Below are positions 17,792-63,588 of a DNA stretch of 64,000 bases, in pieces. The number at the start of each line of letters is the position of its first letter. Position 1 is the stretch's first letter. This DNA comes from Geothrix paludis. GTDB lineage: Bacteria > Acidobacteriota > Holophagae > Holophagales > Holophagaceae. The stretch spans positions 62,001-126,000 of the forward strand of contig NZ_JAKZLC010000005.1 in NCBI RefSeq assembly GCF_022808815.1, in the 5' to 3' direction. Both the position numbers and the translations under genes were made by a program. The notes under the pieces are model-generated. The model had not been told where the DNA came from, searched no databases, and worked only from the letters and a program-made list of their open reading frames with translations.

Positions 17792-17841
17792 CAGAACTCA
17801 ATGGGCCCCGCCATGGTCATGGCGGGGCCCATTGAGTTCTG
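17792..17841. terminator. Bidirectional terminator hairpin
   Basis: Two perfect 24-bp arms separated by two bases, between the convergent sulfatase-like gene and the second pilin gene. The position and symmetry fit a terminator that works for both strands. Confidence 0.85.
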
Positions 17842-19657: not shown

Positions 19658-20848
19658 TTAGGTGTACTTGATGTTGGGATTCCTGCCTCCCAGCGCGGGA
19701 TTGCTGGTGGCGGCCGGCTGGGCGGCGGTGGCCCCGCGGCCGCCGGCCGCGCCGACGCCCACGCCCCGGTTGATGAGTTCCCTCAGTTCGTCGGCATTCG
19801 AGGTGTACTCGAAAGCCTGCTCCTGGCTGATTTCCTTGCGGAGCACCAGGTCCGAGAGGCTCTGGTTGAAGGTCTGCATGCCATATTTCGTCTGGCCGGA
19901 CTGCATGGTGCCGTAGATCTGGTGGATCTTGTCCTCGCGGATGAGGTTCCGGATCGCGGAGTTGGGGATCATGATCTCCAGGGCAAGGGCCCGGCCCTTG
20001 CCGCCCACCTTGGGAATGAGGCTCTGACAGATGACGCCCTCCAGCACCAGGGAGAGCTGGGCCCTCACCTGGGCCTGCTGGTGGCTGGGGAACACGTCGA
20101 TGATGCGGTTGATGGTCTGCACGGTGCTGTTGGTGTGCAGGGTGGCGAAGGTGAGGTGACCTGTCTCGGCGATGGTGAGCGCCGATTCGATGGTCTCCAG
20201 GTCGCGCAGCTCGCCCACCAGCACCACGTCGGGATCCTGGCGGAGGGCCGAGCGCAGGGCCTTCTTGAAGCTGTGGGTGTCCGCGTGGATCTCGCGCTGG
20301 TTCACCAGGGCCCGCCGGTGCTTGTGGACGTATTCCACCGGGTCCTCGATGGTGAGGATGTGGACGGGCTCCTCGGCATTGATCTTGTCCACCATGGCGG
20401 CCAGGGTCGTGGACTTGCCGGAGCCCGTCACACCGGTGACCAGCACCAGGCCGCGGGGCTTGTCGCAGAGGGCCTGGACCGAGGGCGGCAGGCCCAGCTG
20501 GTCGAAGCTGCGGATGTTCTCGGGGATGGTGCGGAAGACGCCCGCCGTGGCGCCGCGCTGGTTGAAGACGTTGGCGCGGAAGCGGGCCACGCCCTGGAGG
20601 CCGAAGGAGAAGTCCACCTCCAGGTCCTCCTCCAGGCGGTGCTTCTGCTGATCGGTCATGACGCCGTAGCAGAGCCAGCGCGTCTGGGACGCGTCCATGG
20701 GAGGCAGCTTGAGGGGCACCATGCGCCCGTCGATGCGGATCTGCGGTGCCGAGTCCGTGGTGATGTGGAGGTCCGTACCCCCGTACTCCACCATCGTCTT
20801 GAGCAGCTGCTGCAGCGGAGCTACGTAGTTGGAACCGATTTCACTCAT
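19658..20848 (-). CDS. pilT: Pilus retraction ATPase PilT
   Basis: 396 residues. Walker A GVTGSGKSTT, the Asp box and Walker B LVGELRDLETI, the His box HLTFATLHT, and the PilT-specific AIRNLIRED motif are present. It is longer than usual because of an Ala/Gly-rich C-terminal tail of about 35 residues. I start at the ATG at 20848 (GAGG seven bases upstream) and not at an in-frame TTG at 20869. It powers pilus retraction. The gene is separated from pilB by an inserted element. Confidence 0.93.
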   Translation of the reverse strand: MSEIGSNYVAPLQQLLKTMVEYGGTDLHITTDSAPQIRIDGRMVPLKLPPMDASQTRWLCYGVMTDQQKHRLEEDLEVDFSFGLQGVARFRANVFNQRGATAGVFRTIPENIRSFDQLGLPPSVQALCDKPRGLVLVTGVTGSGKSTTLAAMVDKINAEEPVHILTIEDPVEYVHKHRRALVNQREIHADTHSFKKALRSALRQDPDVVLVGELRDLETIESALTIAETGHLTFATLHTNSTVQTINRIIDVFPSHQQAQVRAQLSLVLEGVICQSLIPKVGGKGRALALEIMIPNSAIRNLIREDKIHQIYGTMQSGQTKYGMQTFNQSLSDLVLRKEISQEQAFEYTSNADELRELINRGVGVGAAGGRGATAAQPAATSNPALGGRNPNIKYT

Positions 20849-20876
20849 GCCGAACCTCGGGAAAGACAACTGCCTG

Positions 20877-20913
20877 GACAGGATTCACAGGATGAAAAGC
20901 AGGATTAACAGGA
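20877..20913 (+). repeat. Left inverted repeat of the GxxExxY element
   Basis: Starts GACAGGATTCACAGGATG and contains the TAA stop codon of the GxxExxY gene on the opposite strand. It differs from the right copy at three positions. Confidence 0.8.
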
Positions 20914-21300
20914 TTCAGGCTGGCGCGGGGAGCGGAACTTCTTCTTCACTTGGAGGCTCCGGGCTCCGAAATTCAGGAGCAAGGCCCGTTCCAGGCCGGT
21001 GGCAGCCAAGTAATTGACGACTTGCACCTCGTGCTCGGGGAGGACGGCCTGCACGGCCTTCAATTCAAGGATCAGGGATCCGTCCACCAGGAGATCTGCT
21101 CGGTACTGCCCGACCAGCTCGCCCCGGTAGCGAACCTCGAGCTTCACCTCTCGCTCGAAGGGAATGCCATCCATCACCATCTCGAGTGCCAGCGCGTTCT
21201 GGTAGACGGCCTCAGTGAACCCTGGCCCGAGGACGGAGTGCACCCTCATGGCCGCCCCAATGACGCGCCCCGAAAGCTCATCCAAAACAGCCACGTCCAC
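20905..21300 (-). CDS. GxxExxY family protein
   Basis: 131 residues. GPGFTEAVYQNAL holds the GxxExxY signature and a PD-(D/E)XK-like pattern follows (DLLVDGSLILELKAVQAV). Members are small proteins, related to those in 23S rRNA intervening sequences, whose function is not settled. No ATG fits; I choose the GTG at 21300 (AGGA seven bases upstream). The gene ends inside one of the flanking inverted repeats, so repeat and gene have moved as a unit. It lies in the pil operon direction. Confidence 0.75.
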   Translation of the reverse strand: MDVAVLDELSGRVIGAAMRVHSVLGPGFTEAVYQNALALEMVMDGIPFEREVKLEVRYRGELVGQYRADLLVDGSLILELKAVQAVLPEHEVQVVNYLAATGLERALLLNFGARSLQVKKKFRSPRQPESC

Positions 21301-21321
21301 CCAGCCATCCTGCTTTTGAAG

Positions 21322-21358
21322 TCCTGTTAATCCAGCTTTTAATCCTGTTAATCCTGTC
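21322..21358 (-). repeat. Right inverted repeat of the GxxExxY element
   Basis: On the minus strand it reads GACAGGATTAACAGGATT at its outer end. It lies 29 bases after the pilB stop and 21 bases before the GxxExxY start codon. Confidence 0.8.
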
Positions 21359-21386
21359 AAAGAACTTCGCCGGTGTGGGTCGGCGC

Positions 21387-23219
<1,833 letters not shown>

Positions 23220-23298
23220 TGGCTGCCTCCGGATGGGGTGATGCGATGGTAACACCTCCCGGAGGTATCCCACGCCCGGCCCATTGTATGCTTTCGCC

Positions 23299-25257
23299 AT
23301 GCCTGCCCCAGGGACTCCGCCCCAGCGTCTGATGCTGGCCCGGCAATTGATCCGGGAGAAGGGTCTATCCAGGACGGACCTGGCCCTGCTGGAGGACATC
23401 CTCCGGGAAGGGGCCGGGGATCTGGATCCCCTGCTGGAAGCGCCTTCCGGCGAGACCGCCAGTACCGGGGAGTCCCCGGCCCAGGCCAACCTGCGACGCA
23501 ACCTCGGACTCTTCCTGGCCTTCCTCCACCAGTTCTCGCCCCGCCGCCTCGGCGAGGCTCGGGTCGCCATGGGGCTGGTGCTGCAGCATAGCCTCGGGCG
23601 GCTGGCCCACCTGACCGGCACCGCTCACCGGGAGCTGATGGTGGAACACGAGCAGCCGGCCTGGGTGGGCCTGCTCCTCGATCTCCTGGCCTCGCTCCGC
23701 ACCATGGCCGCCCCGCCGGGTGAGGAAGCCGGAACCCTTCAGGCCCTGTGGGCGGCCTTCCTGGAAGACCACCGCGATTCCTTCCGCCAGATCATGACCG
23801 CGCTGCAGACGTGCAAGGACGGGCCGGAAGCTGTCGCGCGACTGAACGCCCAGATGAAGGTGGTCAACCGGGCCATCCAGGGGCAGGGCCGGCTGGAGGA
23901 ATCCCTGGCCCGGCTGGCGGAGCACCTGGAAGCCTGCATCCCTCCGGAGTTCCATGCCCGCGTGGAGCCCCTGCTGCTGCTGCAGCACGTGGTGTCCAAC
24001 CTGCGCCTAGGCCTGATGCGGCCCATGGACCGGGGCATCCATTGGCCCGCGGTGGAGCAGGTGCGGGGAAGTCTGCGCTGGCTCTGGGACCACCTGGGCT
24101 GGGTGCTGCCCCGCATGGACGCCGAGCTGTTCAGGGACCGCACCCCGGCCGAGCTGCGGCAGCTGCTCCGGGATCTCCGCGCCGGGGATCCAGCCCTCTT
24201 CTCCGTGGTGGCCCGGGCCCTGGCCAGCCACATCTCCCTCCTGGGACTCATGGAATCCCTGGAACCTTCGGCCGGGACCGGTTCCCAGGAGATCTACGCG
24301 TCCGTGCCCACCTTCCTGGTCATCGAATCCGAGCTGGGCCGGGTGGCGGAGCGCGCCTACGACCCCGGCCGGGCCGCCCTGGTGGACCCCGACCGGCCCG
24401 AGGCGCCCCGGCTCCGGGCCTACCTCCGCCAGGCCGTGCTGAGCCTGCGCCAGGACCAGGGGACCCTGCGGAGCCTCCTGCAGCAGGCCCTGGCCGGGGC
24501 CGACGCGGAGCAGGTGGCCCACGCCCAGGACAGCCTGCGCGGCCTGCTCATCAACCACCAGAAGCAGCTCATGGGCGAGCTCGTGGGCCTGTTCTCCCCC
24601 GACGTGCAACAGCGCCTGTTCCCGGACTCCCCCAGCCTGATGGAAGAGGGGGATCGCCTCCGGCTGCGCATCCAGCGGCTCTGGGAACAGGTCCCGCCCA
24701 TCCACACCCACCTCCTCCTGAGCCTGGAGCTCCAGGACTGGCCGCGGCTCGCCCTGGGACTGGCCCAGGCCTACCGTCACCTGCTGGCCTTCCGCCGCAG
24801 CCCGGAGTTCCCCCTGATGCGGCGGCCCGACCGCGAGGAGGCGGAGCGGCTCATCGAGGACCTGGGTCAGCTGCTGGAATCCCCGGAGGAAGTCCATCAG
24901 GCCCTCCGCGATGCCATGGACGTGCTGGGCGAGCTGCTGCGATTCCTGGAGCTGTTCCTGCTCCGGATCAACGCCCGGGTGCCCCTCATCCGGCAGGACC
25001 TGGAAGTGGCCCAGGAGGCCCTGCAGCTCATCGCCGGCCTCAGGGGAAGCCCGGCGGGATCCGAGCGTGCCCGCCTTTCCCACAAGCTGATCCAGAGCAC
25101 CAAGCGCCTCGGCGTGCGCGATGCCCAGGCCGTGGTCCTCCTCAAGCGCTGGATCCGCGCCGAGCGCGGGCAGCGAGAAGGCTCGCTTCCCGTCCTGGAG
25201 CCGCTCGCCGCCCACCTCGGCCAACTTGCCATGAGACTCGAAGCCGCGCTGGGCTGA
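23299..25257 (+). CDS. Unknown large helical protein
   Basis: 652 residues; I do not recognise the family. It has no signal peptide or TM segment and is rich in Leu, Arg, Glu and Gln, with long amphipathic helices throughout, as in soluble scaffold proteins. Start ATG at 23299; the frame opens earlier at a TTG. It is divergent from pilB across 79 bases and 40 bases upstream of a GGDEF gene in the same direction, so it may act with c-di-GMP signalling or the pilus. Confidence 0.75.
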   Translation: MPAPGTPPQRLMLARQLIREKGLSRTDLALLEDILREGAGDLDPLLEAPSGETASTGESPAQANLRRNLGLFLAFLHQFSPRRLGEARVAMGLVLQHSLGRLAHLTGTAHRELMVEHEQPAWVGLLLDLLASLRTMAAPPGEEAGTLQALWAAFLEDHRDSFRQIMTALQTCKDGPEAVARLNAQMKVVNRAIQGQGRLEESLARLAEHLEACIPPEFHARVEPLLLLQHVVSNLRLGLMRPMDRGIHWPAVEQVRGSLRWLWDHLGWVLPRMDAELFRDRTPAELRQLLRDLRAGDPALFSVVARALASHISLLGLMESLEPSAGTGSQEIYASVPTFLVIESELGRVAERAYDPGRAALVDPDRPEAPRLRAYLRQAVLSLRQDQGTLRSLLQQALAGADAEQVAHAQDSLRGLLINHQKQLMGELVGLFSPDVQQRLFPDSPSLMEEGDRLRLRIQRLWEQVPPIHTHLLLSLELQDWPRLALGLAQAYRHLLAFRRSPEFPLMRRPDREEAERLIEDLGQLLESPEEVHQALRDAMDVLGELLRFLELFLLRINARVPLIRQDLEVAQEALQLIAGLRGSPAGSERARLSHKLIQSTKRLGVRDAQAVVLLKRWIRAERGQREGSLPVLEPLAAHLGQLAMRLEAALG

Positions 25258-26459: not shown

Positions 26460-26494
26460 CAGTCCTCAGTCCTCAGTCCTCAGTCCTCAGTCCT
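26460..26494 (+). repeat. CAGTCCT tandem repeat (5 copies)
   Basis: Five exact head-to-tail copies of a seven-base unit just after the GGDEF stop, in the convergent gap with dnaJ. It is a simple sequence repeat prone to slippage; no function is apparent. Confidence 0.85.
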
Positions 26495-26572
26495 CAGGAA
26501 GATACGTCCCCAGACGGATCCTCCCAATGGGTCGGCGCGACACTGAAGACTGAGGCCTGAAGCCCGAGTCCC

Positions 26573-27733: not shown

Positions 27734-27771
27734 GCACCCATCCTGGATTCCAGGATAGCCGATGGGCCGGC

Positions 27772-29634
<1,863 letters not shown>

Positions 29635-63384: not shown

Positions 63385-63588
63385 CATGATTCGCTCCTTG
63401 TGGGGGCCCCGCTCCGCAGGCTCCCCCGGAGCCTGCTCTGCGACCCACATGGTCAAACTCGCTCCCTGTGGGGCCCCGCTCTGCAGGCTCCCCCGGAGCC
63501 TGCTCCGCGACCCACATGGTCAAACTCGCTCCCTGTGGGGCCCCGCTCTGCAGGCTCCCCCGGAGCCTGCTCCGCGACCCACATGGTC
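63385..63588 (+). repeat. 67-68 bp tandem repeat (3 copies)
   Basis: Three near-identical units, each with an internal palindrome GCAGGCTCC-CCC-GGAGCCTGC and ending GCGACCCACATGGTC. They fill most of the 291-base gap between the SprT-like gene and rsmI. No spacers, so not CRISPR; open frames through it are artefacts of the repeat. Confidence 0.85.

Follow-up and report, generated by a model that had tools for sequence, protein, structure and literature searches.

Background

One small gene inside an inverted-repeat frame is known from the 23S rRNA intervening sequences that carry a PF05635 four-helix protein. In heterocystous cyanobacteria, heptanucleotide STRR arrays consist of short tandem units scattered in intergenic DNA, much like the arms of the PF05635 units described below; we know of no STRR arrays that form inverted frames round a gene.

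REPINs are short extragenic inverted-repeat units that lack a gene and are dispersed in the genome; they are associated with the RAYTs, a single family of small enzymes, and co-evolution of the two has been proposed, with several such families per genome (PMC3116915). MITEs and their parent insertion sequences, which the introduction of that paper also covers, are short, bounded by terminal inverted repeats and accompanied by gene-less derivatives.

Here we describe a unit in a 64-kb stretch of Geothrix paludis DNA (the window, meaning the whole stretch analysed), in which a single GxxExxY gene stands between two inverted arms. It shares with REPINs and RAYTs the gene-less inverted-repeat units tied to one small enzyme family, but RAYT is a tyrosine transposase while GxxExxY is a predicted PD-(D/E)XK nuclease, and the GxxExxY gene sits between two arms made of repeated units, mostly 8-10 bp long. 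RAYT (Y1_Tnp, PF01797) is present as one copy in G000 and was absent from 10 of the 12 genomes examined, including four of the five repeat-rich carriers (G004, G005, G029 and G027), and RAYT as the mover was rejected for that absence. Since its enzyme belongs to another family and these carriers lack RAYT, we regard the unit as like REPIN/RAYT in its working and not as a member. The likeness to MITEs lies in the short length, terminal inverted repeats and gene-less derivatives; in contrast, the long GxxExxY form has no transposase, no target duplication was seen at the ragged ends of the sites compared, and the arms are internally repetitive. With the 23S rRNA intervening sequences it has in common one small gene framed by inverted repeats, a layout that most PF05635 genes we read also share, but the window unit lies between two protein genes and not in 23S rRNA, encodes another protein, has arm units that are mostly 8-10 bp and not 7 bp long, and has no sign of selection for RNA pairing. 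Compared with Cas4, lambda exonuclease and AddAB, the predicted fold and the E-D-ExK-QxxxY residues agree, while GxxExxY is a stand-alone protein of about 130 residues in an inverted-repeat frame.

Both GxxExxY and PF05635 are family names silent on function. Our searches of the open-licence journal literature brought up no paper in which GxxExxY or PF05635 genes are described in an inverted-repeat frame, and the passages of that literature returned by our searches mention GxxExxY only in passing.

Structure of the unit

The features of the locus are as follows; pilB, pilT and, further on, dnaJ, dnaK and GGDEF are names from reading translations, hence "-like".

19658..20848, minus strand: pilT-like gene, downstream neighbour
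20858..21385, no strand: inserted unit, the stretch lacking at empty pilT-pilB junctions (ends good to a few bases)
20868..20913 (core 20877-20913), plus strand: left inverted-repeat arm, CAGGATTAA-like units, containing the stop codon
20905..21300, minus strand: GxxExxY / PDDEXK_3 gene (ORF with TIGR04256/PF13366 profile matches)
21322..21367 (core 21322-21358), minus strand: right inverted-repeat arm (inverted-repeat search)
21387..23621 (ORF extent), minus strand: pilB-like gene, upstream neighbour

The extended arms (20868-20913 and 21322-21367; 46 nt, 85% complementary) form the longest inverted pair in the region, and also the longest of the four found in the whole window with arms of at least 24 nt at most 900 nt apart. 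Their 37-nt cores differ at three positions, so that the 34 of 37 inverted matches given by the original prediction, which had been made from the letters alone, are exact. It was equally correct that one repeat carries the stop codon: the TAA of the gene (20905-20907) is within the left arm, and the final codons are therefore read from the arm. The start codon is GTG at 21298-21300, with an alternative at 21292-21294. The space between the arms (408 nt) is mostly taken up by the GxxExxY gene, and the long form has no transposase.

The motif CAGGATTAACAGGAT (at most two mismatches) has four matches in the window, every one in these arms, while 0.06 are expected and none of 100 shuffles reached four. 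G+C is 0.58 in the unit against 0.67 in the window, and 0.43 and 0.38 in the arms. When positions 20300-21900 of the window were aligned to empty sites, positions 1-558 and 1087-1601 of this segment matched, so the absent DNA is slightly longer than the span first predicted.

The encoded nuclease

The GxxExxY protein of the window matches TIGR04256 with 137.3 bits (cut-off 35; E 2.8e-40) and PF13366 PDDEXK_3 with 134 bits (cut-off 22; E 4.2e-39). Among 132 homologues the active-site residues are conserved as E in 132, D in 132, E in 130, K in 131 and Q in 130, and the QxxxY pattern presumably ties the protein to the Cas4 / lambda exonuclease / AddAB group. A sequence search for solved relatives gave none at E 1. 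The AlphaFold model is confident (mean pLDDT 94.2), and its top solved structure is SSO0001 (Z 9.9 over 100 residues, rmsd 4.4), which we take to be a Cas4 protein; the rows after it have Z below 8, a level which the tool calls common. Foldseek ranks SSO0001, alkaline exonuclease, AddAB and lambda exonuclease first. Lower fold matches comprise lambda-type exonucleases, AddAB, restriction enzymes, another Cas4 and Hjc, and those other than DNA nucleases include Rep15, a mitochondrial ribosomal chain, CinA/CinB and bunyavirus cap-snatching proteins. By profile and model the window protein is a member of the PD-(D/E)XK superfamily with an intact predicted active site. Besides, dN/dS is 0.05-0.14 among the eight window-clade genes (28 pairs), a range that indicates strong purifying selection on the gene.

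The inverted-repeat frame in other GxxExxY genes

This genome has four GxxExxY genes that we found, each framed by inverted repeats of a different sequence. The original prediction had named as a refuting result that the repeats be absent from other GxxExxY genes: the frame is present around the other three, but its sequence is another one each time. At the locus L010, the GxxExxY gene also lies between direct repeats (1255-1477 and 1928-2150; 223 bp, 91% alike), each with a 23-nt palindrome, and so forms part of a larger composite repeat.

In this genome and its relatives, 34 of 39 loci score above the highest of 219 shifted controls; eight entries of this set are the pil-site unit in different genomes, and duplicates (L001, L013, L086), incomplete hits and the short-flank locus L030 were left out. 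In a wide named set, consisting of the best 80 of 579 confirmed matches and drawn with one protein clade, with three dropped for short flanks, 60 of 77 loci are above the 99th percentile of 640 controls and 35 above their maximum. By record title, the bacteria above the 99th percentile include Planctomycetota, Chloroflexota, Acidobacteria, Verrucomicrobia, Betaproteobacteria and Psychroflexus, and the archaea include Methanothrix (one of two) and Methanophagales. When the sets were pooled (129 distinct genes after four of 133 loci were dropped), 107 genes from many phyla score above 14, while 22 are without an arm pair above this threshold. From 395 genomes of the phylum we later drew 20 loci (18 outside the home genus and two inside), of which 16 score above 14, against 0 of 114 controls; in two loci of this later set, L343 and L344, the GxxExxY gene contains a stop codon. 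Chance or artefact as the source of the frames was rejected by the shuffles and shifted controls.

The repeated unit of the arm is 8-10 bp in 87 of 105 arms against 32 of 94 shuffled arms, and the median span of the whole unit is 473 bp. CCAC or CCGC occurs near the outer end of the upstream arm in 78 of 107 genes, and the reverse polarity in two. With one query protein, GxxExxY matches were found in 6 of 72,556 plasmid records and 0 of 50,697 phage records, on which carriage by phage or plasmid was rejected.

Arm sequence follows the nuclease and probably matters as DNA

Nuclease clades tend to differ in their arms, with one arm sequence to a clade. Arm similarity correlates with protein identity (Mantel rho 0.62, p 0.001, n = 107, the 22 of 129 genes scoring at most 14 being left out; 999 permutations gave at most 0.17), and 65 of 107 genes share their arm type with the nearest relative less than 80% identical, where 17.9 are expected. 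In the later set, ACAGGAT-like arms occur at L330, L334, L339 and L343, which come from other families of the phylum and whose proteins are 46-50% identical to the window protein. On the protein tree the ACAGG-type label changes four times, against at least nine in 1000 shuffles; the label at L053 reflects incidental matches within arms of another type. Monophyly of the ACAGG-armed proteins was not found: L339 and the window clade are apart from L330, L334 and L343, which group near one another, on a backbone without support.

If the arms were selected to pair as RNA, G-U-compatible mismatches should be in excess over A-C ones. In the sense of the gene, 153 arm mismatches are G-U-compatible and 172 are A-C, and by locus the tally is 41 against 42, with 24 ties. 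There is no G-U excess, and DNA is therefore favoured as the level at which the arms matter. Six loci, including L013, which contains the window unit, had no match in Rfam at the gathering threshold. An RNA hairpin as the selected property was rejected on these two results. Of the two roles first proposed for the protein, the nuclease-like one is borne out by profiles and fold matches, while the single test made of an RNA-related one was negative.

Gene-less copies

Thirteen other places in this genome have the same arms and lack the gene. At 11 of them the outermost motif matches span about 70-130 bp, while a single arm was recovered at L203 and at the second of the L205 sites. At L203 (about 1121-1200), the ACAGG left arm is directly joined to an arm of the L010 repeat type, an arrangement that suggests insertion of one element into the other.

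Several of these places differ between relatives. Site A (L206), between apparent convergent stop codons, has a copy in G000, G004 and G005 and an identical 11-bp empty junction in G002, G003, G009 and G046; in G001 its flanks are about 2.3 kb apart with no exact motif between them. Site B has copies in G000, G004 and G005 and other spacers in G001, G002, G003, G009 and G046. At site 9, G000 has an ACAGG copy and G001 an element of another arm family, and G046 and G009 are empty. Short ACAGGAT remnants in G046 (site 1) and G003 (site 3) may be scars of decay, or seeds. Units with a gene vary in the same way: the L009 unit is in G000 and absent from G001, G046 and G003, and the L012 site is filled in G005 by a GxxExxY unit whose arms differ, and by short spacers in G001, G046 and G004, with arm-like remnants in the latter two.

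Of the 47 genus genomes, 23 contain exact ACAGGATTAACAGGAT and none contains the reversed control pattern. The ten carriers of a window-clade gene have 1-19 exact ACAGG-family matches, and the 27 genomes confirmed empty have 0-5, with zero in 22 (rank test p 5e-7; p 3e-5 against all 37 other genomes; relatedness ignored). A second family, CGCGAATGACGCGAATG, has 21, 12, 4, 4 and 2 matches in the five genomes with a gene seen in such arms, and 0-4 in the 42 other genomes (rank test p 1e-5, relatedness ignored); since arms were read for part of the GxxExxY genes of the genus, further CGCGAATGACGCGAATG carriers may exist. Some genomes go against the trend. G026, which has a pil-site relic only, has the highest number of exact ACAGG matches (22), and G025, 84% complete, has 21 with no window-clade gene found. 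Without a window-clade gene there are also 10 matches in G012, 6 in G024 and 5 each in G001, G003, G023 and G039, and for the second family G009 has four CGCGAATG matches and no GxxExxY hit.

The pil site across the genus

The pilT-pilB junction of 47 genus genomes, readable from both sides in 36, is empty in 27 (spacers of 8-44 bp), holds the full-length unit in eight, is occupied at a contig end in two, holds a relic in one and is unreadable in nine. The full-length units (537-587 bp) are in G000, G004, G005, G021, G027, G029, G031 and G035. G026 has the 349-bp relic, with arms present and gene sequence undetectable, and in G019 and G042 a GxxExxY gene adjoins pilB at the contig end. The junction is empty in the two genomes closest by pil sequence, G001 and G046 (94-97%), but carries the unit in G004 (94%) and G005 (92-94%), which are further away.

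On the pil tree (40 taxa; the relic scored as occupied, the contig breaks of G012 and G023 as empty), occupancy changes seven times. Shuffled labels gave a mean of 9.7 changes, with seven or fewer in 27 of 1000, and occupancy is therefore scattered yet non-random on the tree. In AU tests the pil topology was not rejected by the element gene data (p 0.059) and the element topology was rejected by the pil data; since the element gene is compatible with the pil topology, an old vertical insertion plus losses is possible. The median dS of the element is 1.37, against 0.44 for pilT and 0.38 for pilB. Between G000 and G004, element dS is 1.14 against 0.19-0.36 in seven host genes, and between G000 and G005 it is 0.60 against 0.31-0.55 in five, host genes being the ORFs of one 10.5-kb region with dN/dS below 0.25. 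Codon bias could inflate element dS and so explain part of the excess.

No second genomic site of a window-clade gene was found in the 47 genus genomes. The gene-bearing unit of this clade was thus found at one site only in the genus, and that it moves is inferred. Target duplications were not observed at any of the sites compared (the pil site, A, B and the others), and the ends there are ragged. The view that this is a small mobile unit has accordingly gained the empty pilB-pilT sites and the other copies with the same ends that had been looked for, and not the target duplications.

Proposed explanation and alternatives

We propose that the unit is one of a large class of small DNA units, mobile or selfish, in which a nuclease and its cognate arms act on DNA and are accompanied by gene-less dependents, and we put the probability of this reading at about 0.5. 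In such a unit a single PD-(D/E)XK (GxxExxY) nuclease gene would lie between two inverted arms, each a short run of mostly 8-10 bp repeats. The nuclease most likely acts on DNA bearing its own arms, either as duplex or extruded as a hairpin or cruciform; it would bind and cut them, repair of the break would then copy or swap the unit, and the unit would spread. Gene-less palindromes with the same arms would be dependents of the nuclease whose gene they lack. In favour of this reading are the frames in excess of controls, the covariation of arm and nuclease, the gene-less copies, the higher motif counts of gene carriers, the empty or differently filled sites, the purifying selection, the DNA-nuclease fold matches and the lack of a G-U excess. 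Against it are the ragged ends with no target duplication seen, the single site of the window-clade gene in the genus, the motif-rich genomes with no such gene detected, the AU result, the 22 genes with no arm pair above threshold and the near absence from plasmid and phage records.

An old insertion at the pil site, inherited vertically with many losses and without present mobility, is the reading suggested by the AU result and by occupancy changes fewer than in most shuffles, and the gene-less relic and short remnants suggest that loss does happen. We consider it less likely than the mobile unit, as the G000-G004 element dS lies far above that of the host genes (that of G000-G005 is close), and as G000, G004 and G005 carry the elements of the pil site and of site B while G001 and G046, which are closer to G000, do not; G046 likewise lacks that of site A. 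The arms could instead be operators of the nuclease or of a partner, in which case the gene would be a resident accessory and the gene-less copies binding or terminator sites useful to the host. Strong purifying selection, arms at both gene ends with the stop codon in one, and the position of site A between two apparent convergent stop codons all fit such a regulon; a conserved one would not be expected to be missing from relatives at several sites, to have arms that vary widely among clades or to hold an element of another family at the orthologous site 9 of the close relative G001, and we think it rather improbable.

We are equally sceptical that the arms are MITE-like elements moved by an unrelated transposase and that nuclease genes were captured as passengers. 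The short palindromes do resemble MITEs and the unit has no transposase gene of its own, but capture alone would not couple arm sequence to nuclease relationship across phyla, and RAYT, the only transposase family covered, is missing from four genomes with 14-19 exact motif matches each (G004, G005, G029, G027). A shade more doubtful again is an RNA-level unit like the 23S rRNA intervening sequences, in which the transcribed arms would pair, the unit would be cut out by RNase III or by the nuclease itself, and the gene would ride in the loop. The mismatch counts, the Rfam result at six loci and the DNA nucleases at the top of the fold lists speak against it, while the gene does run in the same sense as its neighbours, PF05635, named for 23S rRNA intervening sequences, has the same frame, and further down the fold lists are endonucleases of RNA splicing and cap-snatching.

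Under the proposed reading of nuclease and cognate arms, the distribution suggests a widespread, little-described kind of small selfish DNA. More tentatively, and with the odds somewhat against it, the units may make up a new class of mobile DNA among prokaryotes, spread over many bacterial phyla and reaching some archaea. A Cas4/RecB-type nuclease on its own, with no transposase, would propagate the repeat-built inverted frame around its gene together with gene-less derivatives, in parallel to a four-helix/heptamer class, with nuclease and arms co-diversifying and several non-cross-reacting families per genome competing even for the same intergenic sites. If each GxxExxY and PF05635 gene is the core of a selfish unit bounded by repeats, such units could account for many interspersed 7-10 bp repeat arrays in bacterial and archaeal genomes. 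REPIN/RAYT would then have an analogue driven by a nuclease, and among the arm-nuclease pairs there would be many natural variants in the specificity of a single small nuclease fold. A vague annotation thus becomes a testable question, namely whether each nuclease acts on its own arms.

PF05635 units and other repeats of the window

PF05635 is a four-helix family unrelated to GxxExxY, and its genes have the same kind of frame, with mostly 7-bp units. In 24 of 30 hits the frame scores above the highest of 163 controls (L110 supplies two rows, and L108 was left out for its short flank), and the best period of the arms is 7 in 16 of 24 and 14 in 5 of 24. Two places of the window are related to this kind:

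26460..26570 (approximate), no strand: gene-less heptamer element of the PF05635 kind, (CAGTCCT)5.4 followed by an imperfect opposite arm
27734..27775, no strand: empty dnaK-dnaJ junction, which holds a PF05635 gene in heptamer arms in relatives

A PF05635 unit lies between the dnaK-like and dnaJ-like genes in G004, G015 (where the gene is broken), G021, G027 and G029 (L101, L104, L110, L115, L116). The gene-less heptamer element sits between GGDEF-like and dnaJ-like genes, 1.2 kb from the empty site.

Two further repeats were seen in the window. A perfect palindrome with 24-nt arms and a 2-nt loop (17792-17841) lies between the ends of converging ORFs, and 63391-63588 is a tandem repeat of 67 bp in 2.9 copies with 96% matches.
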